From positions 11,186,501 to 11,250,500 of the forward strand of contig OZ038530.1 in NCBI GenBank assembly GCA_964036665.1: DNA of 64,000 bases. The letters are read 5' to 3'. Each line of letters starts with the position of its first letter. The stretch's first letter is position 1. The DNA comes from Gordius sp. MW1. Taxonomy: Eukaryota > Nematomorpha > Gordioida > Gordea > Gordiidae. The notes under the pieces are model-generated. The model saw only the letters and a list, made by a program, of their open reading frames with translations. It was not told where the DNA came from and ran no database searches. Positions 378 through 64,000 of this stretch are shown in pieces. The position numbers and the translations under genes were made by a program.

Positions 378-3300
378 GTAAAATATAACATACACTGCTC
401 TCTAAAATATTTATATACCATTTAATATTGAGCTTTATGAGTTTAAGTTTAAGAGCTTAAGTAAAAAAAGAGCTTATTCGATTATAAACCAATATCTTTT
501 TAGCATCTTTTGTTCAGTATATTATTAAGATACGAGCGAATTACCACTTTTTTAACAAGGTTTTTTGTTTTAGTTTGTGTAGCGGGGATAGATTTAATTT
601 TATGTGGACGCTATCCTTTGAAATCGCAATAAGCATGCCACCTTAGTAGTGTTGGAAAAACGGCTGGGTTTTGTTTAGTCGACCTTTGGCTTTAGTCGAC
701 TAAATATAAACAGATCAAAAATTTTTTGGTCTGTTTTTTTAAGTCGATCTCTAGGCTTCGTCGTAATTTGAGAAACGGATCAGAAGCGACCGTTAGTTTT
801 AGTTGAACTAAAGGTCGACCTAACAAAACCCGGCCGTTTTTACAACACTACACCCTAGCCTTTTTTTAGAAAGAATCTTTGTTTAAAACACTGAAATGCG
901 ATATGGGTAAAACGTTCTCGTGTCTTCGCTATTTGAACCATTTTTTTACTTGCAAAAATGTAATTCAGCTTTCAAATATTGGTAACTTTAATATACTTTG
1001 TAAAGGCTAATTCGTGAAAAGCTTGAATTTAAATTTTTTACAAGAGTCTAATGGCTGCTTATTTTAATGAACTTAGATGCGAGATTAAATTTTTATTTTA
1101 CCCAGCTCGTAATTAATTGATTGTAATTATCTCGCTTAGCGTCAAACCTTAAATTATGTAGTTATACCGCATCAATGAGTTAATATTTCGGAGGTTCTGA
1201 TATTTTTATTTCAAAACAAACATTTCTGTCAGGAGAACGGAATATTTGTGAAGATAATAAATAAAAATGTTTTCCTTATAAATAAATGACACAGCGTAAC
1301 TTAGATTATTTTACAAAGATTTTGTTATCGCTAATTAGAAGCTTATATCTTTATTATGTACGAGTTTGGGATTGCCGTGGTGTATTTGCTGATTTTAAGT
1401 GCTTTGTGAAACGATTTTTGAATGATTTGATTTTAGAGGGAAAGGCTATTTTGAACGCAAATTTTATGGCTTTCAATTTGGTTTTTTTATTGAGTTTGAA
1501 TTGGTTGCTTGAGTGTGCGCTTAATTTAACACCATTTTTTAAACTTAATGGGAATCAACGGTCTGCAGATGTCATAATACAAGGGCCCATGGTCTAATAA
1601 ATCCTTTTTAAAAAATTAAATCTATAGGATGTACTCTACTTTTAAAGCAAATCCGGTAAAATCTCGATCATATGTTCTAAATAGCACCCTAAGATCTTTA
1701 AAAATCCTGTTTTTTAGATTTATAATCCCCCACATGTCAATATTTTCTTTTACCCATCACTGCTTAAGGATATATATACGTCGATAATTCTGACAACCCA
1801 AATTTATTCAAACCTTTACTAGTTACACCTTTTATTGTTGTTGTTTATCTCTCGTGCAATTTGACACGTCCCAGAAAATGGTGTGTATGAATATGTGCCT
1901 AAACAGCGACGGGACGGTCTCTTTTAGCCCAACCCTTTTTTCACTTATTCGCGCCAACCTCCGTATATATATGGATTTTGGAGCGTGTGGTAAGACGTTG
2001 TTCCACCAATTCTAACCTCACTAACCTTTCAACTAATTTACAACCGTTTACGCTAGTGTTGTAAAAAGGGCTGGGGTTTGTTTGGTCGATCTTTGGTACC
2101 AAAGATCGACCAAACAAAACCCAGCCCTTTTTACAACGCTAGTTCACACCACCTTTTCTCTCTCTCTCCTAGCTAAAAGTTTTTTTAATTATTCGACCTG
2201 GCCCCGTTTTATCACGGTGGAACCCTCTTTTTTGAGTTTAGCCAAAGACCAACCAACCCACCACAACACGGTTGCACCTCCCATCTTTAGTTAGCTTGTT
2301 AGGGTAATCCAGCGTTTTTGTGTGCCGCCGATAGTACTAGTAATAGCAGTAGTGGTATGGTTACAGTATGTGCGAGCAGCAGCAGCAGCAGCAGCTAGCT
2401 TTTAACACGGCGTCATACAAAACACCATCCCGGGGGGGCATGTGTTTTTGTATATGACGCGCCCCAGCCTACCATCCAAAACACCTTTTAGCCTATTATA
2501 ATAAGCACACGCTAATGCTAGCTAACGCATCAGCCTAGCTAGGCTAGCCTTCCCTTTTTTAAAACAACGCCGTAGTAGTTGATGAAATTTAATGTGTTAT
2601 ATGCATTCATTAATCTCGGAACCGTGCACAGAATTTGGTGAAGATGAATATGCCTCTCAACAGCGACGGGACTGTTATGTTTAATGCCACCCTGTTTGCG
2701 TTAGTACGCTCCAACTTAGGCATTTACATGGATGGTAAGGAGGCACACACCCACTTTGACCAATCTAATATATATATCGCATCATGTCGTCATCGATCGT
2801 AGACTTGATAAACCGCCTAACCGCACTTTTTAAACGGCATTCCTTAATTTTCTTCAATTAATGTATTTCTTAAAAAAATTGAATAGAAAAAAGGCTTTAT
2901 AGCCGTTTAAAGTAAACTATAAATCTTTTTAGGGGTAGATTTAAAATTTACTTAATAAATTATAATTTGTAAAAATTTGCGATTTGTATAGTTTAAATAA
3001 TTATTATTTTTGGTTACAAGTAACTTCCCTTGGTTAAGCGGTCTGTCTAGTCTACGTACATATATCATACCTATCAATACTCTAAAACTCAATCATCTTA
3101 GCTATGTTAATGTACGGCTCCTCCTACACTATACTCTAGCTCTCGTTTTGTCAGCTGCTTGCAAAAGAACTGATATTAATTGTGCCCGCATCCTTTGTGC
3201 ACCAGGCTCGTCCCCTCTATCGCAAAGCATGCCGTTTGCCTCGTAAATTTGAGGGATATTAGCAACAATATTGAGGCTTTAAACTTCGCGACCGCAATTA

Positions 3301-6300
3301 TCATTGACTTTAGCTTCTTTAAATAGCATCGTCGCTTGAAGCATGCCTGCCCACATATAATATTACCATCAGTGCATGTGCTCGAACAAATTTAGCCTTA
3401 TAATTGAACCACACCATACTTCCAATTTTGGATTTTGCGATATTTTTTAACTAATTTGCCCGTGCAAAGCGCAGCCCAGTTGAGGCTTAATAATCGAACA
3501 CAGAGCTTTTTTCGTTATTTACCCATCATTAATATATATACTACTGATTAAACGTGATGGTTTGTTTGTTTTAATCTCGCACCTCACTCAACGCCCCTAA
3601 TAAATGTGTAGAAAATGATGGCTATGAATATGCCGCTTTGTAAGGACGGATCAGTTACATTTCGGGGAACCTTGTTTGCGCTTATACGCGTTTCCCACCA
3701 ACTCAATATGGAAGGTAGATGTCGTCCTCCGTGTCATGTTCCGTGTGCCTGTTTGTCGTGTTTTGTGTGTGTGCGTTTGCTAGTTCTATGTGTGCATTCA
3801 TTTATGAAATACATATTTTTTCCCCACACTCCCCCTTTCTACCTAGAAAACGAATTTAATTTGGTTTTAAAATCCCTCCGACCCCCCTGTCTGTTTTTTT
3901 CTTCCTTAGATTGGTTTGCTTTTATCGTTCTAAGAAAGTCAACATTTACTTAAGGATGCCCTTTTGATGCCTGCCTTTTACTTAAGCCTCTACTTTCGGA
4001 TTTCAGCTTTTTCCACCAATTTTTAAGATCATCTCGATTGGAAAAACTGATGGAAACAGCTAAAATTAATGTGCCCTTAGTAGGATATTACGTACTATTA
4101 TTTTTTCTCTTATTCAACACTAAACTAATTCCTTTGCATTCTGATAGTTTCTAACTTTTCGTTCGAGCCCTGACGTTAATTATACTTTTTACTAATATTA
4201 ATGATGTGTGTTCGTATTAATTCTATTGCTTTTACTGTCATATATTTGCTTTTACTCGTTCTATTATCTATCCTTACTAATTTTAACATTTTTAAATTTG
4301 TTTTCTATCAATTAAATTAATAAAAATTTCAAATATTAACCATTGTAACCTAAATGATGTTTATATTTATTCCCCTTTAATAACAGGTAATATTGATCAG
4401 GCCAATGAAGAACTAAGGGCTGTTATTAAAAAAATTTGGAAGCGTACGAGTCAAAAGCTTCTCGACCAGATTGTACCCCCGGCGGGACGTACGTTTCAAT
4501 AAAATACATTACCTCAAAGATTGCTATGCAGTTTAAATCTATTCATTCAAACACTAGTTAAATGTTATAAAAAACAAAAAAGTAATGTTGGTCACGAATT
4601 CCCTAAAAATAATTTTCTATACGCTTAACTTGATAATTTAAAAAAAAATTTATGAATATAAAAGTTTTTTTTGTAGAGATAGTATTCATAAATTCTTTAA
4701 AATTTGATTAAAATTTTATAAAATTGTAATTTTGTCCCTCCCTTCATGACAGTAGTTAAACAGTTTATGGAATTTATGTTTAACCAGCCATGAGCTAAAT
4801 ACGTTTTATACGTTTATTAAGTTTTTTTTTAACATAAAATAAAAATACATTTTGTCGATACTATTTAGACGACGATGTGACCGTGGGGAAGTTTTATGCG
4901 ACCTTCTTGATTCAGGATTACTTTAGGAGATTTAAACGGCGAAAAGAGTTGGAAAAGAATCCACACATGGATAAGGACAAAGTTACAGCCGGTAACATAT
5001 TGCAAGTAAATAACTTGGTGTGTTATTTTTATCCCTAATTTCTTTTAAGAATACAATTTATCTATTTTAAAGTCATTATAAAAATACATGCCAAAATATA
5101 TTATATAAATGAGCGGGTATAGGGGTCATAGATCAAATTGTATAGGATAAATTTTTATAGTGATTTCTGCTTAATATTAAAAATTTCTAAGTGGTCGTCG
5201 GTAGTGAATTTTGATATTTGTTTACGAAATTGTCTACCTCGGGTTTTAAATTACGGAGGTCATCGTCGGGACGAAAATGAAATGATTCAAGATTTTATAT
5301 TTTTCCACTTTCCTTCTCTCCAAACGACAGATTAGGTCGGGTGGGGGGGAGTTGTTAGATTTAGCAAAGTTATCATTCACCTTAGTAAAGTCCATCAAGC
5401 GTTTATATTCATCAATAAAAATTGCGTTGAAACTCTGGCATGGCATACTTTAATTGCTATGTTTAGTCTTTTGAGCGTTGAAAACTGCCCTCATTCGTAT
5501 ATATAGTTATCGCTAGGTTGGCTAATATTCAGAAGTTTCAATAAAATATTTTACCGTATAATTGAAAATCTATATAGCCTAAAGCTTCAGATTTAATGAA
5601 ATTCTTATTTGAGCATACAGAAGCAATTACATCGTCAATTTTTATGTTGTAAGGTATTGCTAACAATTTGTGAAACATTTTTAGGCCGGTCTAAGAGCCA
5701 TACAAGATACGGGACCCGAAATAAGACGCACCATATCGGGAACTCTCGAAGGTGGAGATAACAGTCACGAACCAATGCATCGCGTAAATAAACTACCTCA
5801 ACCCGCAATACATATAAATTATATTTTACTCTTCGCTTACACACTACAAATATTTGACTTTAGGTTTTATTTGCAGTATTTTATATTGTTGCGAAATATG
5901 TTCATCGTCTCCCTTATAAATGGTGAGTCTATTTTGAACATTAGAATCCTTAAAGTAGATTAACAAATCTAAAAAACCCATTTAATCACAGTATACTTAT
6001 AGAGTGAAGGTTTGTTCTAACAAGCTTGAAGGTAAAATTTGGGGGAAAATTGAAATTTTGTACCAACCATCCGACGCTAGTAAATAAATTCAATTCAATA
6101 AATGAGATCGATTGCTATGGATAAGGCCTAAAAATTATTACTATTTTATTGAGCCCTTTTTAAAGTGAATTTTTTTACGATAGAGAAATCATTCGTTATT
6201 CGGTAACATTGTGTCAGCCGTGCAGCATAAAATCTCAGGGGCTACACACACCGTTGCGGGTGGTATTTCAGGCGGAAATCTGCCCTCTCTCCCCGTCCCC

Positions 6301-20788: not shown

Positions 20789-21724
20789 GCCACTGGGCGT
20801 GTGATAAATCTAGCCCAAAAGAAACATTTATTGTTGATAATCTTCAAATTCCCTGGATTTTTTTAATAGGTGTCAACGCCTAGATTATTTACATTTATGA
20901 GGTTTAACATTGATCAAGCATTTTTTAATCATGAGAATCATGAATGTTTTGCCATTAAGTTTTTACATTATAACTCAAACCCTCGTTCCAATCATATTTT
21001 ACCTCTATTTTATGTTTTAGACAATTGTATAAATATAATTTTGAAATTCACATATTGTATTATCTTATTTTCAAATATGTTATTAATTTTAATTAATTCT
21101 GGAATTTTTTCGCAAATATAGTAGAATAACGAACCTTTAAAGCATCCTAACGCTTTTAACTAATATGACAACACACAATAAAAGGATTCGTCCTTTATAT
21201 GTACGTACGGGAACTCACATCCCATCACCAAAGTCAAACAATAGAGGGTCCTTTATTGTTCCCACCAAAAGCTTAGAAATGGCTAAGCATTTAAATTTTA
21301 TGTTATAACGTTTTATGATTTACCATCGTATTACACGTTGTGAATGGGACTTAACCCGGCGAGCCAGATACCGAAAGTCAAGGGTTTGCAAAATTACAGA
21401 TTGGGACATCTTTTTTGGCTGCATCCTAAGTTTTCAAGTTACCCTACTCCTCTATTTCCTCTACAACCAAACATTCATGCCAAAAGAGGGGTAGAAATTT
21501 CATTCGAGTTATTTCTGATATTTATCTTTTGCAAAATCTTTTCAAGTTTTTTAACTTTAAAGGATCTGCATTTGGCTTTAAAGGATATGAAATCTAAAAT
21601 GAAAAAATATATTTCATAGTTGCTCTCTTGCGAATTTATAAATACAATCCACCACCGTGTTTTTTCTTTGACACTAATTTCAAAATATAATTTATCAAAG
21701 TTTTATTATCTTGTATACAACTAG

Positions 21725-23204
21725 GTTCAAGGATGATATAAGAGCAAATTACGACCACACCACTACCCAACCTGGAAACACGATTGCCCCCTTGTCACAT
21801 TCGACTCAAGGCAAAAATCCTTTTGGTATCATTTTCATAAAAACCCATAAAACTGGAAGTTCCATCATGCAAAATATTCTTATGCGTTATGGACAAAGAC
21901 ACCATTACAATTTCATACTCCCCCAAAGCTCAGAAGATATTTATATTAACATCGATGATCACGACCGGCAAAATCATAAGCCCACCTCTTTCCCCTTCCT
22001 CATGTGCCATCATACGATAAATTTTAAAACTCCGAGAATTTTAAGTTCAAAGCTGTTGGGTGATTTAACCCCTGAAAATAAGGAAATGTTGCCTGGTATC
22101 AACTACGTTTCTATTATTAGACGACCTGGTCTAGTGTTTGAATCGAATTACAATTACCACAACCTCATATTTCAAACGAATCAAAGGATTGATCATTTTC
22201 TCTTTGACCCCATACCTTTTTGGGTTGACTCCGAAATTGGTAATGGCACAGCCATTAAGGGTTATTTAAGAGATCCCATGCTGCATGACTTAGGATTAAA
22301 TATATTAGCTGAAGACGATAATCCTGCGGTTCAATGGTTTAAAGAACTTTTACAAAATTATGATTCTCATAATCTTAAATACAACTCAAGCCGCGAAATT
22401 CTACTCCTAACTAAATTGAACGACATCTACCATAGCGCGATCGCTGCGAAACTAAAGGAAATCGAGCGCGACTACGCTCTTATCATGGTGGCTGAGTTAA
22501 TGGAGGAAAGTGTTGTATTATTGAAAGACTTACTAGACGACAAAAGGGAAAATATCGATAGGTTACTAGCATTCAATCGATACGACGATTGGGTCTATTT
22601 GCCCTTAAACGCTCGAAAATTGAGCGAAAAATTTGAACCGCTCCATCATACTCTACCAACTCCGCGTGCAAGGGGAAGAACTGAGAGTGAAGATTTAAGC
22701 GGGCAACGACAGCATTTATGGCATCGAATTGAGAGCTGGAATTTTGGGGACGTCCTGTTGTATGACAATTTGCGAGGTATATTGATGGAAAAGATTGAAC
22801 GATACGGAATCCTGAGAATGAGAAAAGAAGTGGAAAGGTTGAAAATAAGGTGCAGGCAATGGCTCCATATCTGCATCAGTGATCTTGCGTCCAAAGAAGA
22901 GGATGATAGTTATGTTAAAAGTGATAAAAGGACCATGGTGTTTCATAAGCGAGCCAAACGCTCTACCCCGAAGACCACTTTTTACGCCCCTTGGTCAGTT
23001 CAAGTTTGGGGTTACCGAATAAAACAACACTTTTTCTCGTCTATTTACACCGTGGATATGTTCGTCCGAGATATGGTAGAACCGAGGAATAAAAAACTTA
23101 TGGGAGGTGGCGTAGATATAGAATCAGAGGTTAGGAGATTTTGTGAAAAGCTTGTTAAAGATGAATATGCATTTACTGCCGATTTACTTAAAGTCCAAAC
23201 CTAG
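21725..23204 (+). CDS. Galactose 3-O-sulfotransferase family (Gal3ST), main exon
   Basis: Gal3ST enzymes move sulfate from PAPS to the 3-OH of galactose on glycolipids or glycoproteins in the Golgi, as type II membrane proteins. The exon encodes about 493 residues. IIFIKTHKTGSS near its start is the family 5'-phosphosulfate loop; YVSIIRRPGLVFESNYNY about 90 residues later is the 3'-phosphate region, with RRP where many members have RDP. The basic C-terminal third is longer than I expect for the family. There is no in-frame ATG before the PAPS loop, while ACTAG at 21720-21724 is a plausible acceptor, so the membrane anchor must be in an upstream exon I could not find. Stop at 23202-23204; poly(A) signal at 23250. 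Confidence 0.87.
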
Positions 23205-29619: not shown

Positions 29620-30258
29620 TTAATAGCCGGCTGAAGAAGCTTCTAAGAAACCGCTTTTAAGCGTTTGTGCCATGAAAAGGAATAACTTATTCCAAGCCGA
29701 TCTAACCTCCGAAGTGAATCCATCGGATCCCAATTCTTCTTGCCATTGCGCTAAGAGGCATGCCTTGAAGCAATCCCAATACTCGGGCTCGAATGCACGA
29801 AATTGGCTGTGTACTTTACCCAACACGAACAGCGACGTTTGAGTAACTTCTACGTCATTTAAATTACTGAGTAGGGTTGCGAAAGCGAAATAAAACCTTT
29901 GCGAATGAGCCTTGAATCTGGGATCTGCAAACAAGGCATCCGCATCCGATATTGTTCTGAATGGGAACATAGCCTTTATCGCGGCTGACTCTTCAAATAG
30001 GCGCATAAATACTTTTTGGACCAAGAAAAGGCCGGACCGCTTAGGCTGACCCGGGGTACTGTATGTCATCATTTTCCACGATCTTAATATGATAGCTCTA
30101 TCTTTTGCTGATAGTTTGGCCGGCACCGAATCATCTGGTAGTTCTGGCCGTTTTTTTAATATGAAGGACGATGAAAATTTGAGACGACTTATCCAGCTGA
30201 CATCCTTTGTTTTGTAATTGGACTTAGATTTGGCTCCTAAATTTCCCATTTCTCTCAT
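29620..30258 (-). CDS. Globin with N-myristoylation-like start, intronless
   Basis: A 212-residue single-exon frame. The globin fold starts at about residue 49 (LSAKDRAIILRSW, with the conserved A-helix Trp at 61), MFPF at 97-100 covers the CD1 Phe region, His118 in RFKAHSQRF is the distal E7 position and His150 in LGKVHSQF is the proximal F8 haem ligand; FTSEVRSAWNKLF is the H helix. The roughly 48-residue N-terminal extension is basic. The fourth codon is a second Met giving MGNLGAKSKS, which fits an N-myristoylation signal as known for membrane-linked globins such as globin X; either Met could start. The absence of the usual globin introns is notable. It is convergent with the PLA2-like gene (486 bp apart). 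Confidence 0.9.
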   Translation of the reverse strand: MREMGNLGAKSKSNYKTKDVSWISRLKFSSSFILKKRPELPDDSVPAKLSAKDRAIILRSWKMMTYSTPGQPKRSGLFLVQKVFMRLFEESAAIKAMFPFRTISDADALFADPRFKAHSQRFYFAFATLLSNLNDVEVTQTSLFVLGKVHSQFRAFEPEYWDCFKACLLAQWQEELGSDGFTSEVRSAWNKLFLFMAQTLKSGFLEASSAGY

Positions 30259-31210
30259 CCACTCTGTTTTACAAAGGTAGGTTTTACAGGGTACAGAACA
30301 AAGAATTGTTTGGATTTTTTGATTAATAGGGTTAAAAAGGTATAATGGGATGGATTAATGCCTTTTTGAGATAATTTGTCATAATTAATCACCGATATAC
30401 AAAAATGTGGGCGTTTCTTTATTATTTGGCGCTACAAATGTGAAGAAGATGGAAGTTCTAAATTAATTTTTTTGGCTGCATTTGTCTATCCCCTTAATTT
30501 AATTATCGACGGGCGCTATTAAGGATAATTAATTACGACGATTCAGATTACTCTATTCACTAATTGTAACAAAGCCTTTTATAACTAAAAATACTGCATA
30601 GAAATTCAATATTTAGAATAATTTATTATTAATAGCTGAGGGGCAAATTTTTCTGAGTTAATACATAAATCACAACTTCGCATTACTTAATAAACTAAAA
30701 TTTAAAGATCTAGTAAATATGTTTACGGCAAGACACCACTTAATAAATGTATTTTCAGAGTCTAGATATTAATTAAGTTATATTTCAGCAATATTGTTTA
30801 TGATTATTTTGGCTACGATTTCCTATCCTTATCAATAATTAATGACGTACTTTTATTATTTATTAATAAATTTTTTGGCAATTTTATTGAAATCTTAATT
30901 AATGTAATGGTGATGCTAAAAGACGAATGGTATCCAAAAGCCTACCCAAGTGCCATGATAAAAACTAGAAATTTTTAGTTAAGTGCTCGCCATGAACCTT
31001 TTATTTAATTAATTAATTAATTAATTAAAAATGAGTAATTTATTTTGTGAAATACTCAATATTAATATCCATAACCTTGAGAATTAAATTTAAACTCTGT
31101 TTATTCAAAAGTATGATTAAATATACAGAAGTTTTTTATAATAATATTTTAAATTCGAAATTCGCTTATAAAAAGATTTAATTTATACCAATGATTCTAA
31201 AGTAAAATAA
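30259..31210. other. Upstream region of the globin gene, nothing firm
   Basis: AT-rich, containing a (TTAA)n tract at about 31004-31026. Any globin promoter lies here, but I see no motif that I can call. Confidence 0.4.
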
Positions 31211-39539: not shown

Positions 39540-42500
39540 TTATTCGAAACGCGGCCGCAATTGCTCTTCATGCCTCATAGCATGGTTATTTGCAGCCGTA
39601 AACTCCACGTCATAAGCTTTAGAGCCCACGCGGGATTTAACTACCGCTTCAAGCCATTTTTCCGACCCGCCATAACCCCGGGCCCACACTGCATCGTTAA
39701 CCCGGAACCGGCTAATGTCAGATACCCGAGACGGCAACTCGCTATCTACGAACACATCCATCGGTATGCGCGGTATCCTATTTAAAAAAACCTTACTAAC
39801 CGGCGCGCGACATGAGAAACGAGGGGAAGCATTGTGCAACAACCTGTACATCCAAATGCCTTCCTCCTCAACCTTCTCGTTTTTTAACCATCGTTTCACG
39901 ATCGCCACATGCCGCTCAGCCAGCCCGTTGGAACTAGGATGATAGGGAGGCGTTAATACATGACGTATGCCCCATCTATCGCAAAACGCTTTAAACTCGG
40001 CACTAGTAAACGCGGTACCGTTATCTGACACCACGCACTTCGGTATGCCAAAAGCGCCCATTAATTTTTCCAAAAAAACAATTACGCTCTTGGTAGATAG
40101 TTTCGACAACCGCTCGAATTCAACCCAACTCGATGTCGCATCCACCAACAAAAGGTATTGCTTAGAATCAAAATCAAAAAAATCAAGGTGCACTCTATCC
40201 CACACATTATGTGCCTGAGGCCACCTCGCCTTTCTATCATGTCTGAACATACTCGCATTCTTGTTACATGCAACACACTTACGCCCATACATGCTTATAT
40301 CTTTTCCCATTTTAGGCCACCAAACATATCTACGCGCCAAAACATTCATTTTAGCCGTCCCAATATGTCCAGCATGCAATAACTTTAGAACCTGATGACG
40401 TAACACTCGTGGAATCACTATGCGTTCACCCCGTAGAATGATACTGTTCTCAATACAGAGTTCGTTTCTCACCCCGCGGTAACCTACAGGAATCTCCTCG
40501 AGCGTCTCGCCGTCAATCAGGCATCTTGTAACTCGACTCAACTCCTCATCTATACTAACCTCCTCTTTAAGGTTAACCGATGGGAAAGTCTCCGTTACAA
40601 TATTGACCAAAAAATTATCACCCTCTAATTCCTCCTCAGGTAAGGTACCATTATCCTCACCTAAGCGCGACAACGTATCAGGTAGATAATTCGTTGCCCC
40701 CTTTTTATACTCTAAGGTTATGTTAAAATTCCCCAAAAACAACAACCATTTCTGTAACCTAGGGCTAAGCAACAAACTACTGTTACACTTCGCGAACAGA
40801 GGAATTAGCGGTTTATGATCCGTAAAAACTTTAAAAACTCGACCAATAAGATACTCCCGGCACTTTATTAACGCAAAAACCACAGCAAGAGCCTCCTTCT
40901 CAATAACTGAATAATTAAGCTCCGCCGCCGTTAACTTACGCGAGAAAAATAGTATTGGCCCCCTACACCGCTATTTGATGCGTCTACCGCTAGACCTATT
41001 GGCAGGTCACGATTAAAACACACCAAAACCGGATCGCTTCCTAACAAGTTTTTAACTTATCGAAAGCTAACTGCTCCTTCTCTGTCCAAACAAAACGCAC
41101 ATTACTCTGCGTCAGCCTATGCAAGGGAGTCGCTACCTCCGAACAATGAGGTATGAACTTGCGATAATAATTAAACGACCCCATGAAAGCCAAAACCTCT
41201 TTTTTACTAACAGGGGCCCGTATATTCTTAATCGCAGCCACCTTACTAACCAGAGGTCTAATTCTCCCACAGGCAATAACATGCCCTAAAAAAGTAACTT
41301 CGGTAACCCCAATCATGCACTTTTTCATGGTTAAACGTAGTCCTCTTTCCTGGACGCGGTTCAGTACCGATTCTAGACGCAAATCAGCTCTTGCATAGAC
41401 GCGCCCACAATTAGCACATCATCCAGGTAAAATAACACGCCATTCAAACCCTGAAAAACCGAGGCCATCGTCATTTGGAAAACTGACGCCGAAATACTCA
41501 AACCAAACGGCAAACGATTAAACGTAAACAACCCCAAAGGAGTATTTATCGTCATTAACCGCGCCGATCGAGCATTTAATTTGATCTGCAAATGAGCCGA
41601 TGAATTAAGTTTTGAAAAATAACATGCGTTACTCAGGTTAGCTAAAATCTCCTCAACCCGCGGAATTGGGTACTTAATTTCCACCAACCTCGGATTAAGT
41701 GTAACCCGGAAATCTACACACAGACGAAGCGAACCGTCGCTCTTTTTAACCGGGACCAGGGGAGTCGCCCACTCACTATAATCAACGGGCGAAACAATTC
41801 CCTGATCCACCCAGTCCCGAAGCACGGCATTAACTTCGTCCCGCCAAATAAACGGAATACGCCTACTCGGGCAAAACTTAGGACAGGCACCTCGTTTAAG
41901 CAGCACGTCGTACTCATACCCTTTTAAACATCCTAAACCTTCCGAAAAAACGGCGTAGCGTGTCACTAACCTACGCAAATTAGATTGCCATTGACCCAGG
42001 TCGCCCAAACACTCACGTTCACCCGAAGGTGTCACACCTGCAGCACCAAAAGGTGTCAAGCCTGCAGGCGTCCCGATGTTTATCATCGCACACGACTTAG
42101 CCGCTTGTTTGGTACTCGGAGGCTCAATATTACATATCATCGCACTCCCCCCTGGGCTTACTTTACGACTACGCTTTAACACTAACTCCGGGGTAGGTAC
42201 CTCTAACGTGTCACATAATCCAAACCACCTAACACGAGGGCCTATTATCTGCAACCAATCCCAGCCCATTAAAGGGGCGATATTAGCTGCCGTAATAAAA
42301 ATAGGTAAATTACCCTTCGCACCGCCAGCCACCACTTCCACGTAGGCCTTCCCTACTAATTGAACAGGCGCACCATCCAACTGGCGCGCATTAAAAAGGG
42401 AATGGGACATCTTTTTAGAGGGCCAAAATAATTTAAAATGCTTTAATGAAATTAAACTAACACAAGCGCCAGAATCGAGTATAAAATTAATTAACGTACC

Positions 42501-42566
42501 TTCCACCCACACTTTTGATTTGGGCAGTTGAGTACCAAATAATAAACGGGGCAAAGCGCTTGTCAA
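39540..42566 (-). pseudogene. pol: protease, reverse transcriptase, RNase H, integrase (frameshifted)
   Basis: Three open blocks. 42566-41373: aspartic protease with DSGA, then the start of reverse transcriptase up to the catalytic FYLDDVLI. 41382-41041: the rest of the RT thumb/connection region in another frame (overlap of about 10 nt at the break). 40883-39540: RNase H (FTDHKPL, DTLSRL), integrase zinc finger (His pair then CVAC), catalytic core with SDNGT and YHPSSNGLAERH, and a C-terminal domain. Between 41041 and 40883 the RNase H start is broken. Described only; not reconstructed. Confidence 0.92.
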
Positions 42567-42614
42567 TTTAAATGTTACAATTGAGTTGAATAAATTAGGT
42601 ACGCTGATATCTAG

Positions 42615-44266: not shown

Positions 44267-44927
44267 CTTTACATATAAATTTATTTTAAAATGTTGTTTG
44301 AAGCTTTTAAAAATAAGTTAGGGTATAATTTCCCGCCTTTTTTATTGCTTTATAATAGATAACCAAGTTGAAATTTAATATAAAAAGGTCACTTATATCA
44401 ATTAATAGATTTACTTATTTGAAAACTAATCAAAGATATATTCGGGGGGGGGGGCAAAGCCGTCAGGATTCTTACCATGGGAGACCAAAAGAGCCTGAAT
44501 TTTGTTCTTGGGGATCTTACCTCAACCATAGCTACGCCACTGCTTTTATTTATTAGTAACCCCTCTGCATGCATTTATAGATGTTACTAATATGCTTAAA
44601 ATAGCTAAGGTTCGATATTATACTAATCAAAATAACTAAATTTAATAGCTATGGTCCATTTGTAGCAAGTTGAGGGCTTCTATAAATTTTAAAATTTTTC
44701 ATATGTGTACGTGAATTTACATAAAGCTACCAACAACTGGAGATAAAAAGAGAATCAGTTTGTTAATTCTCTCAAATACAGTTTAATTATCAATATATTC
44801 TTAGTAATAATTATTTAAGAGAGTTATTGATTAAAACTTATTATATATATCTCTATACTCTTAAACCTTATTTAAATTTTTTTGTTTATTCACTAATCTT
44901 AATAATGCTATTAGCTCAAAAATAATA

Positions 44928-46544
44928 ATGGAAGCAATAATAACTGAAACTTATAAATATGAACCAAAAAGTGTTATTAAATTTAAGCCAAAAGTGACTA
45001 ACAAAGCTTCCAATGCATACTTTGTACATTACCTTTCAAGCTCATATGCTAATCCTGGACTAACTCTTTTACAAAGATTTCAAGGAACCTTTACCTCACT
45101 CTTTTTACCTAAAGGCTACCCCAATACTGTGAGTGCTGATTATCTAACCTACCAAATATGGGATAGTTTACAAGCATTCAGTAGTTCAATTTGTGGAGCT
45201 CTTGCTACTCGATCCGTAATGACTGGCTTAGGGGTTGGTGATACTCAAGCTACAGCATTGGGTGCAACGCTTAGTTGGGTTTTCAAAAGTGGAGCTGGTA
45301 TGATAGGTGGCATAGCTTTTGCTTTCTACATCGGAGATCGTTTGGATGTAGATCTTAAACAATGGAGATTAGCGGCTGATCTTATGAATGATGCTGCTTT
45401 AGCACTTGAACTTGCATCTCCCACTCTCGCTGACACATACACTACAACACCAGCATCCCGAGCCCTATTTTTACTCCTCATATTTTGCCTGGCCAGCATA
45501 GCTAAGGCTTGTGTGGGGGTAGCTGGTGGAGCTACACGAGCTGCTCTCATAAATCATCAATCTCGTGCCAATAATTCTGCCGACGTAGCTGCCAAAGATG
45601 GGAGTCAAGAAACGTTGGTCAACCTCATAGCTTTAATAACGGTCATGCTCTTACTACCCACAATAGCCAATTCAGGTCCTCTCTGCATCTCCATAACTTT
45701 TTCAATCCTAGTAGCCTTTCACCTATTGGCAAATTATCAGGCGGTTAAAGCGATTCGCGTTAATCGCGTAAATCATGGGCGGTACCACTTATTGGTAGAG
45801 GCCTATTTAAGTTCGCACTCGTCGTCGCTTTCTAATTCGCTGGTTTGTGACGGCGACTCGCATCTAGCTGACACCATGTCGGTGCACAGTGTAAATCGAT
45901 GCGAGAGTTTGATACCATTTTCTAACTGGCTCGGGGCTAGCCCTGTCCCGGACGTTAAAATGGGAATTCGTTTTTCCGAAGCCTTAAAACACGCGCCTCA
46001 AGATACTTCTCATTGGTTGGCTGAGCTATCTTCTCAATCATATTTTTTAATACCCGTGGTCAAAACTTGTGGTCTTAAATCTAGGTTAAGGTCTTTGCTA
46101 ACATCCGAGCCCTTTGTTCCCCCGTCTTTTACTTTTGAAGTAGCGTTGAATCGCGTTGCTAAGCCTTTCGACGAGTTACGTGCCTTATTTCAAATCGAAT
46201 GTTTTATCCATTTAGCCGATGACCCTTTTAAAAGTACCGAGTTGAATGCAACATTTTTGCCAAATACTTGTAACGGGTTTGGTGATCAACTTGATAAAAA
46301 TCGTTTTGAACAAATTGGTAAAGATGATGATTTAAAAAGGAGACTAACGGCTGATCAGAAAGATCGAATTCTTCCTTATGATAATTGCAATAGTGATGTG
46401 TCGGTGTGTCAACTTTTGTCACAGAGTGAAGCCATGTGCAAAAAATATTTTCAAGATTTTTACGATTTGTGCACCCAAAAATGTTTTTGGGATTTTTCTT
46501 CTACCATGTTCATTAAAGATGATTGGAGATTTGATTGCAAATAA
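44928..46544 (+). CDS. RUS1 family protein (DUF647), intronless
   Basis: A 538-residue uninterrupted frame. Residues about 60-160 hold the family core: LPKGYPNTVSADYLTYQIWD, QAFSSSICGALA, GVGDTQATALGATLSW, GAGMIGGIAFAF, and WRLAADLMNDAALALEL. Hydrophobic segments follow at about 180-200 and 230-275 (FLLLIFCLASIAK; LIALITVMLLLPTIA), consistent with membrane association, then a hydrophilic C-terminal half. RUS proteins are known from plant UV-B/root development; the animal role is poorly defined. The typical KDG..GR motif reads KSGAGMIGG here. ATG at 44928 is preceded by A-rich sequence and stops. The lack of introns next to intron-bearing genes may suggest retroposition, but no poly(A) scar is obvious. 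Confidence 0.92.
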   Translation: MEAIITETYKYEPKSVIKFKPKVTNKASNAYFVHYLSSSYANPGLTLLQRFQGTFTSLFLPKGYPNTVSADYLTYQIWDSLQAFSSSICGALATRSVMTGLGVGDTQATALGATLSWVFKSGAGMIGGIAFAFYIGDRLDVDLKQWRLAADLMNDAALALELASPTLADTYTTTPASRALFLLLIFCLASIAKACVGVAGGATRAALINHQSRANNSADVAAKDGSQETLVNLIALITVMLLLPTIANSGPLCISITFSILVAFHLLANYQAVKAIRVNRVNHGRYHLLVEAYLSSHSSSLSNSLVCDGDSHLADTMSVHSVNRCESLIPFSNWLGASPVPDVKMGIRFSEALKHAPQDTSHWLAELSSQSYFLIPVVKTCGLKSRLRSLLTSEPFVPPSFTFEVALNRVAKPFDELRALFQIECFIHLADDPFKSTELNATFLPNTCNGFGDQLDKNRFEQIGKDDDLKRRLTADQKDRILPYDNCNSDVSVCQLLSQSEAMCKKYFQDFYDLCTQKCFWDFSSTMFIKDDWRFDCK

Positions 46545-62232: not shown

Positions 62233-63488
62233 AATTGACATGCTTTATTAAAAAAAAGTATTAAATATAAAGTGGATTTAATACAAAGATACAAGAACGA
62301 AAATATTTATAAAAAGAATGATTAAAACACATTATCCGTTTCTTCATCTTTAAGAATGGGCATTGAATCCATCAAAGAATAAAAATTGGATTTAGCAATC
62401 GCAATGGCAATTGATTGTCTTAGTAAGAAACTATTCGATATTTTAGAAGGGGGCGAGCGTTTATTGAGTTCTTTAAAAAAATTTAATGCGCTCTTTCCGA
62501 ACGTCCCTGAGCACGACGAGACGATAGGAATAAAAACGGAGGATTCCGATAAAGCTGAGTATTTTAAGGATTTGCGATGCTCTGCCGATCCTAGGGGGTC
62601 GTGAGTATCGTTGGAGGGGGCAAACAGGTCAATACAGGTGTAGTCCCATTTTAAGAAAAGGCCTTTGTCCCATGGGATAAGTGATGAACCGTCAGGACGC
62701 ATCCGCCCTTCGAGAGAGGGATCTGACGGTTCAAGGATGGAAGGAACTTTTGCCCGTTTGAGGGCAGCTTGAAGCAGTGTATTTATTTTTTGGTGCCTAC
62801 TATACCGGCTTTTGTTAAATTTACAATGCAGAGGGTGACGCGCTTCCTCATCTACAAGTGAATTACAAAGCCGGCAGGGGTATGGGGACGTGTATTTACA
62901 GCCCAAGCGGAGGGCTATGTTGAAGGACAGGGTAGGATTCTCTAAAAACATTCCCGAAAACTTACTAGGGTAAGCTTCAAGCCATTCATGACCAGATTGG
63001 TCGAAAGCCAATGACCTAAGATTGCAATGCTGTTTGGCGTCGCATGTCGAGAGAAGGTAAGCAACGGACCGCGACACCAAACTTGCATCCAAATCTTTTT
63101 GGGCATATGATTGTGGAATGTCAACTCCTAAATTGACATTCTCATTCCATAGAGATAAGGCTTGATTGATAGAGGGGTTGAGTGAGAAAGGGACAAGGTC
63201 GTTAATAGATTGTTTAAAAGAAAGGGAGGAGGAAATAAAGGCGGCTAAGGAAATCGCGGTTGGGGAACGAATACCTAGACCGCCAGATTTTGTGGGAAGA
63301 GTGGCTTGAAGCCAAGTATTCGTGTTAAAAGAAATATTTAAAATTAATTCAAGTGTGGATTTAAAAAAGTGTTCATAATTGTATAAGACATCTTTAAATA
63401 AAAAAGCTTGCGTGGAGCGGAAGCAGAATAAAATTTTGCTAATGTTGTAATAATTTTTTATAATGTAAAAGGAATGATGAGAGGGCAT
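62171..63488 (-). mobile_element. 5'-truncated RLE-type non-LTR retrotransposon (LINE) with 61-nt A tail
   Basis: On the minus strand a 388-residue frame ends at 62322, followed by a short 3' UTR with AATAAA (62244-62249 on the plus strand as TTTATT) and 61 A (plus strand T, 62171-62231). The frame starts within the post-RT region (LPTKSGGLGIRSP), has a CCHC finger (C205, C208, H218, C222), then RPDG at 264-267 and WDYT at 281-284, the PD...D arrangement of a restriction-like endonuclease. RT itself is missing; upstream of the first Met (63488) an in-frame stop follows DKASWKKV. Frame intact over 1.17 kb and a long clean A tail suggest a young insertion. Confidence 0.85.
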
Positions 63489-64000
63489 AGATTTAAAGAT
63501 GTCACCTTAAACCTTTTTCCACGATGCTTTGTCATTTGTGTCTCAATTTTTTACTCAACTACGCCCGTTTTTTTACAACCTATAAAGCTGTAACAAATAA
63601 ATATTCTCGATACCGTAAAACATCACCATTTTCTAAATAAAATTAGCATTTAAGATAGCATTGCATTGCTATGAATATTTAATTATATTAAATATATGGA
63701 TTTTAAATATGATGAACTTTCCTAAACTAATTTTTTTCTTATTCATAAATATTTCGCTTCTCATTATACTCGCGGAAATTTGTATAATTTATAATTATTT
63801 CTCATTTCAACCAAATATTATAAAAGCCTTCATTTAACCAAATAGATTTTAGGCTATGACATTACATTACTATAAACGCTGTACTAAACTATTTCTATAC
63901 ATTGTCGAACATTATAACCAACTTTTATACACCAGTGCAGTGGTTTATAAATTTTTGTTACCCAACTCTGCATATTATCGTTACATCGCACTTTTCAACA
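63489..64000. other. Right edge, nothing recognised
   Basis: AT-rich; the first 100 bases may still be LINE sequence in broken frame. No gene seen. Confidence 0.4.

Follow-up and report, generated by a model that had tools for sequence, protein, structure and literature searches.

A probable three-member set of mutually exclusive exons in the Cav1 calcium channel gene of a hairworm

The stretch analysed here, called the window throughout, comprises 64,000 nucleotides (nt) of the hairworm Gordius sp. MW1 (positions 11186501–11250500 of contig OZ038530.1, our contig C4, in a genome of 211.8 Mb and 12 contigs). It starts inside a gene for the alpha-1 subunit of a Cav1 (L-type) calcium channel, whose 3' part lies on the + strand and in which one exon, placed between those for the EF hand and the pre-IQ segment, occurs in three successive versions. 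Comparison with the Cav2 gene and then with the best-matching protein traced a colinear chain of exons that starts about 22 kb before the window and reaches about 6 kb into it, and a weak extra piece lies at 8.1 kb; the chain to the protein of another hairworm, Gordionus, spans repeats I–IV. Spliced alignment gave 34 predicted introns for the gene, the shortest of 61 nt. Its features in the window are as follows (a slash marks the exon edge).

1–7, + strand: last bases of the IVS6/first EF-hand exon, whose start lies 121 bases before window base 1; peptide identical to Gordionus, donor aa/GTAAAT
281–377, + strand: EF-hand exon, 97 nt, constitutive upstream neighbour, from spliced alignment to the Gordionus protein P0005; no duplicate of it seen in the self-comparison of the gene region
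1875–1989, + strand: copy 1, EF2/preIQ-A exon, 115 nt, 38 residues, from translation and frame; donor g/GTAAGA, weak acceptor
2632–2734, + strand: copy 2, canonical version, 103 nt, 34 residues, from translation; 26 of 34 residues as in the animal consensus, a single break in the 21 near-invariant columns
3612–3714, + strand: copy 3, 103 nt, 34 residues, from translation; orthologue in the predicted Gordionus isoform X4, 28 of 34 residues, matching edges
3715–3814, + strand: GU-rich tract right after the copy 3 donor, a candidate site for a CELF-type factor (14 UGUG/GUGU)
4387–4488, + strand: pre-IQ exon, constitutive downstream neighbour; 97% identity to Gordionus, splice edges fit
4869–5005, + strand: IQ exon, from spliced alignment; PF08763 above cut-off
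5685–5783, + strand: further C-terminal exon, from the Gordionus alignment; 3' edge set by eye at CGC/GTAAAT

A first reading made from the letters alone (the sequence-only reading) had called the channel a Cav1, and the comparisons bear this out. The Ca_chan_IQ domain, which follows the EF-hand and pre-IQ segments, gave a PF08763 match above the cut-off in the pre-IQ and IQ exons, and PDB chains of Cav1 (full-length entries) matched at 1e-30 to 4e-28 vs 1e-7 to 3e-7 for Cav2 chains; Cav2 is a separate gene, on contig C5. With a C-terminal query, the closest protein by identity among the matches listed was P0005 (87%, the others at most 79%), annotated as 'muscle calcium channel subunit alpha-1-like isoform X4' from the nematomorph Gordionus sp. 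m RMFG-2023. By score, P0004 from the bird Lonchura striata stood above it, and the query stretch is present twice in P0004. Judged by sequence similarity, the gene is of the Cav1 type, nearer to Cav1 than to Cav2.

All three copies are open, run from phase 0 to phase 1 and have GT–AG sites of their own, and each length (115, 103 and 103 nt) is 1 modulo 3. Copy 1 keeps its phase with a 12-nt longer end, which yields a 4-residue extension, and carries two unusual cysteines. When the eight possible combinations were spliced in silico, the three single-copy products stayed open through the exons tested; the remaining five (none, the three pairs, all three) met a premature stop, the nearest downstream junction being 50–72 nt off. 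The sequence-only reading had claimed three homologous, intact copies, only exactly one of which works in a given transcript. Coordinates and translations agree with the former claim, the spliced products agree with the latter, and the neighbouring junctions it had placed at 377 (end of the upstream exon) and 4387 (start of the downstream exon) are correct by spliced alignment. The tandem three-copy exon set is confirmed, and its reading as mutually exclusive alternative exons is supported. Probably at least copies 2 and 3 serve as alternatives; for this we infer jointly the expression of copies 1 and 2 and strict mutual exclusion in vivo. Steric exclusion, in which introns are too short to be spliced, was rejected as the device: the introns between the copies measure 642 and 877 nt, against 61 nt for the shortest one inferred in the gene.

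In whole-genome searches (E ≤ 10, with scores covering the best candidates only), the canonical exon joined to the pre-IQ segment returned six matches, among them copy 2 at 2.9e-16, copy 1 at 3.9e-7 and copy 3 at 0.0035, and two further searches returned four matches each; the genome-wide matches listed held no fourth copy, only the three copies, the pre-IQ neighbour and the Cav2 counterpart. A profile built on 77 peptides of this exon, including those of the three copies, found the copies at E-values of 9e-23, 8e-21 and 2e-19 in 50 kb scanned on both strands, where the next match reached only 0.24. Self-comparison of the gene region showed no other tandemly duplicated coding exon, the remaining self-matches being repeats, low-complexity pieces and the usual resemblance between repeats III and IV. 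The exon preceding the triplet (281–377), which we take to be the counterpart of vertebrate exon 37 (e37), had no second copy in that comparison; at this place the hairworm exon is single, with no e37-type duplication of the EF-hand exon.

To place the copies among animal channels, we used 240 listed proteins, many of them unnamed: the best 120 of 7,941 matches and the best 120 of 922, the latter from a 277-residue C-terminal query containing copy 1. All 241 alignments they gave were kept and yielded 74 distinct peptides of 34 residues, that of Gordionus and 73 more, with the 51-residue insert of P0006 skipped in the alignment. Among the 73 peptides 21 columns are near-invariant (conserved in at least 95%). 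Copy 2 breaks one of these, copy 1 five, copy 3 eight and Gordionus eight; identity to the animal consensus is 26, 19, 17 and 15 of 34 in the same order, and the lowest value among the 73 other listed peptides is 25 of 34. On this comparison, copy 2 is the canonical animal version of the exon. Two records in the sample contain doubled stretches: P0006 (Acipenser sinensis) has this exon twice and P0004 the whole surrounding block twice, in both cases likely a doubling in the record rather than alternative exons.

The copies are old. They share 23 (copies 1 and 2), 16 (copies 2 and 3) and 17 (copies 1 and 3) of 34 residues, and their alignable similarity ends at the exon edges, with no alignment in the intron flanks, which argues that the duplications are not recent. 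The proportions of synonymous (pS) and nonsynonymous (pN) differences, which average over both lineages of a pair, are 0.69/0.22 for copies 1 and 2, 0.66/0.36 for copies 2 and 3 and 0.62/0.31 for copies 1 and 3, a synonymous excess in each (Fisher p = 8e-5, 0.011 and 0.0097); the synonymous divergence (dS) of 1.3–1.9 is near saturation. We also simulated neutral drift starting from copy 2 (4,000 runs at branch lengths of 0.2, 0.3, 0.4 and 0.6). The identity of copy 1 was attained without a stop in 0.23, 0.02, 0.0008 and 0 of the runs, and that of copy 3 in 0.55, 0.34, 0.14 and 0.008. Copies 1 and 3 look constrained if half of dS is assigned to each branch (0.78–0.95).

For copy 3, the Gordionus protein outweighs the simulation as support. 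Between its EF and pre-IQ segments, P0005 carries a 34-residue segment that matches copy 3 at 28 of 34 positions and copy 2 at 15; with copy 3 it has 14 residues in common that depart from the animal consensus, and the best colinear chain places it on 3612–3716 with fitting splice edges. By sequence this segment is the orthologue of copy 3, and copy 3 therefore predates the split of the two hairworm genera. A search for the exon in relatives, which the sequence-only reading had suggested, yielded a counterpart for copy 3 and, among proteins of about 124–395 residues, no candidate for copy 1. Among the 240 proteins listed, the hairworm EF-exon signature looked for occurred in P0005 alone, so no second hairworm protein was seen there. 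P0005 represents a cluster of 13 sequences, and other isoforms may therefore be hidden behind it.

The exon corresponds to residues 1542–1575 of human alpha-1C (alignment to PDB chain 8hlp_A). The sequence-only reading had described it as the second EF-hand-like segment, which holds for part of the exon; the latter half belongs to preIQ-A, where calmodulin binds. In Cav1.2, mutation of the TLF residues abolished calcium-dependent inactivation, T1561A and L1565A weakened it, IKTEG (1572–76) is important to it, and rabbit R1601 and E1605 are calmodulin contacts (PMC10094977); the TLF triple mutant has been linked to loss of contact with the III–IV linker (PMC8699282). T, L, F and the L1565 equivalent (L24) are kept in all three copies and in Gordionus. 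The position of rabbit R1601, counted along the sequence, is R in copy 1, G in copy 2, Q in copy 3 and H in Gordionus, and IKTE is replaced by IYMD followed by FGAC in copy 1, by IYMD in copy 2 and by LNME in copy 3 and Gordionus. We favour a tuning of calcium-dependent inactivation because the TLF latch is kept while the calmodulin-facing end varies, and the effect gains support because the Cav1.2 determinants reported in that work fall inside this exon (PMC10094977). By analogy, the chances are about even that exon choice alters how strongly or how fast the channel undergoes calcium-dependent inactivation.

Taken together, we consider it likely that the Cav1 alpha-1 gene contains a three-member tandem set of mutually exclusive exons whose choice may tune inactivation. 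Copy 2 would be the ancestral-type exon, and copies 1 and 3 old duplicates whose divergence took place under some constraint on the protein. Splicing would join the EF-hand exon to one copy and that copy to the pre-IQ exon, and products with zero, two or three copies would lose the frame and probably be degraded. Each copy would bring its own form of the stretch that runs from the second EF-like loop across preIQ-A; with the TLF anchor kept and the calmodulin-facing end (R1601, IKTE) changed, inactivation would most likely differ by cell.

Several points weigh against this account. The splice matrices were built on the gene's other splice sites, 29 donors and 29 acceptors, with four ill-fitting introns excluded. 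The donors of copies 1, 2 and 3 outscore 6, 8 and 4 of the 29 reference donors, and their acceptors outscore 0, 5 and 0 of the 29 reference acceptors. Between the neighbouring exons (378–4386), the donors rank 12, 9 and 24 among 216 GTs and the acceptors 106, 58 and 99 among 169 AGs, and an exon scan by splice score kept copy 2 and a spurious exon at 3155–3242, which scored higher, and not copies 1 and 3. Weak acceptors fit regulated exons and decay equally and are no evidence for use. The isoform-level support concerns copy 3, the use of copies 1 and 2 being inferred, and Gordionus isoform X4 is itself a predicted sequence, though one that presumably rests on RNA. For copy 1, a search of proteins of about 124–395 residues gave no candidate sharing three 5-residue words. 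The neutral simulation is weak for short branches, most of all for copy 3, and the effect on inactivation is argued from mammalian Cav1.2 mutants. A low pyrimidine content was rejected as the cause of the weak acceptors, the last 40 bases holding a fraction of 0.55–0.675 in the copies vs 0.525–0.6 in three constitutive neighbours.

Were only a pair real, copies 2 and 3 would alternate and copy 1 would be decaying or unused. The acceptor of copy 1 is the lowest of the three and lies under all 29 reference acceptors, and its two cysteines, its extension and the empty protein search point the same way; however, copy 1 is open and in phase despite its longer end, keeps TLF and L24, and shows with copy 2 the lowest pN/pS of all pairs, and copy 3, backed by an orthologue, has an equally weak acceptor. 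We regard such a pair as unlikely. An assembly artefact, or a very recent tandem duplication without function, is hardly credible: beyond the tandem layout itself it can draw only on P0004 and P0006, since doubled stretches do turn up in public records, but the orthologue in another genus contradicts it for copy 3, and the divergence of copies 1 and 2 does so for these two, with residues shared as given above and intron flanks that cannot be aligned.

A further alternative accepts the exon set and places its effect elsewhere: the copies would be alternative, and inactivation would remain untouched, with the choice acting on trafficking, the III–IV linker or an auxiliary partner, or being near-neutral. 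TLF and L24, without which Cav1.2 lost inactivation or showed less of it, are kept in every copy, and the core of the mechanism may be unchanged; yet the altered residues take in IKTE(G) and R1601, reported as inactivation determinants or calmodulin contacts (PMC10094977). We judge this alternative possible and rather improbable. Compared with it, the account with an effect of the three-exon choice on inactivation remains the one we prefer.

What might select a copy can be considered at the level of intronic signals. The GU-rich tract at 3715–3814 holds the highest count of UGUG/GUGU (14) among 998 intronic 100-nt windows, with at most 7 outside the tract, for a motif picked after the sequence had been viewed; TTGTTGTG is absent from 378–4386. 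In a test for docking and selector pairing of the Dscam type, where one intronic site would be complementary to a site by each copy, introns 1, 2 and 4 as the docking place were matched by 7, 9 and 10 of 33 shuffles; intron 3 (near 3461–3490) was matched by 0 of 33, with four places tried and local composition not kept by the shuffles. Foldback (inverted-repeat) elements lie at 646–851 and 2053–2142, in the two introns that flank copy 1, and their arms can cross-pair (86–88% over 43–44 nt). The family is dispersed in the genome (at least 83 matches listed; 40 of the 1,145 first-look candidates scored), and we do not read these elements as a device for exon choice. A fuller scheme, which we offer tentatively and hold to be doubtful as a whole, is a three-position inactivation switch in hairworm Cav1: each exon would set the coupling of calmodulin through preIQ-A with the TLF latch kept, a CELF-type factor on the GU-rich tract would select copy 3 in one tissue, and hairworms would have broken specifically with a segment that is near-frozen in the sampled animals.

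Elsewhere in the channel gene, the linker between S3 and S4 of domain IV, 3440 to 1693 bases upstream of the window on contig C4, reads LAEVRNIE in Gordionus, and the hairworm splice model joins LY to PG over a 1748-nt intron at this place; the model may have overlooked a small exon or an alternative one. The rest of the window contains the following frames.

21678–23204, + strand: galactose-3-O-sulfotransferase frame, 508 residues, uninterrupted (PF06990, E 8.9e-32)
29620–30354, – strand: globin-domain frame, 244 residues (PF00042, E 6.6e-19)
39540–42614, – strand: retroelement frames with protease, reverse transcriptase, RNase H and integrase domains
44865–46544, + strand: UVB-sensitive/vitamin B6 (RUS) family frame, 559 residues, uninterrupted (PF04884, E 4.7e-80)
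62322–63506, – strand: frame of 394 residues, without a Pfam match at E ≤ 0.001

The models for channel closure by calmodulin at the EF-hand/preIQ/IQ region are still under dispute (PMC10094977). Here one gene holds diverged versions of the segment in question, with TLF kept and IKTE changed, and the worm may be able to select the way in which calcium turns its channel off. Placed in a standard Cav1.2, the three versions of 34–38 residues would provide a natural and direct test of which residues carry the signal.

Tandem mutually exclusive exons are a known kind of arrangement in Cav genes. The human and fly genes record ten independent tandem exon events in ten different exons (PMC9741552), and human CACNA1C and CACNA1D and fly Ca-alpha1D, Ca-alpha1T and cacophony are similar to the hairworm gene in this respect; examples are 8/8a, 21/22 and 31/32 in CACNA1C (PMC5748662) and the pair numbered 15/16 in fly Ca-alpha1D (PMC4174434). 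The events named in the first two of these accounts are pairs, mostly in membrane segments or linkers, and none named there is at the hairworm triplet exon. The closest likeness within the Cav C-terminus is that of vertebrate Cav2.2 and Cav2.1, where the mutually exclusive e37a and e37b in the EF-hand region change channel regulation: Src-type inhibition depends on tyrosine Y1747 in the F helix of the EF-hand, which e37a has and e37b does not (PMC5818475). Those exons are a pair, in Cav2 and in the F helix of the EF-hand, whereas the hairworm has three, in Cav1 and in the segment that follows, preIQ-A included. In a nematode, C. elegans, the gene unc-32 has a mutually exclusive set of three members, with tissue-regulated sets 4a–4c and 7a–7b; UNC-75, a CELF protein, binds the intronic UUGUUGUGUUGU element on which the choice of 7a depends (PMC3585155). 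That gene is unrelated (a V-ATPase a subunit), and the hairworm tract is GU-rich but lacks the TTGTTGTG motif noted above. Among the top 10–20 titles and abstract openings listed per search of the open-access literature, none described such a three-exon Cav set. While the kind is already known, the present set, in the Cav splicing accounts covered, is new at this exon and adds a three-member case at a place that they do not name.

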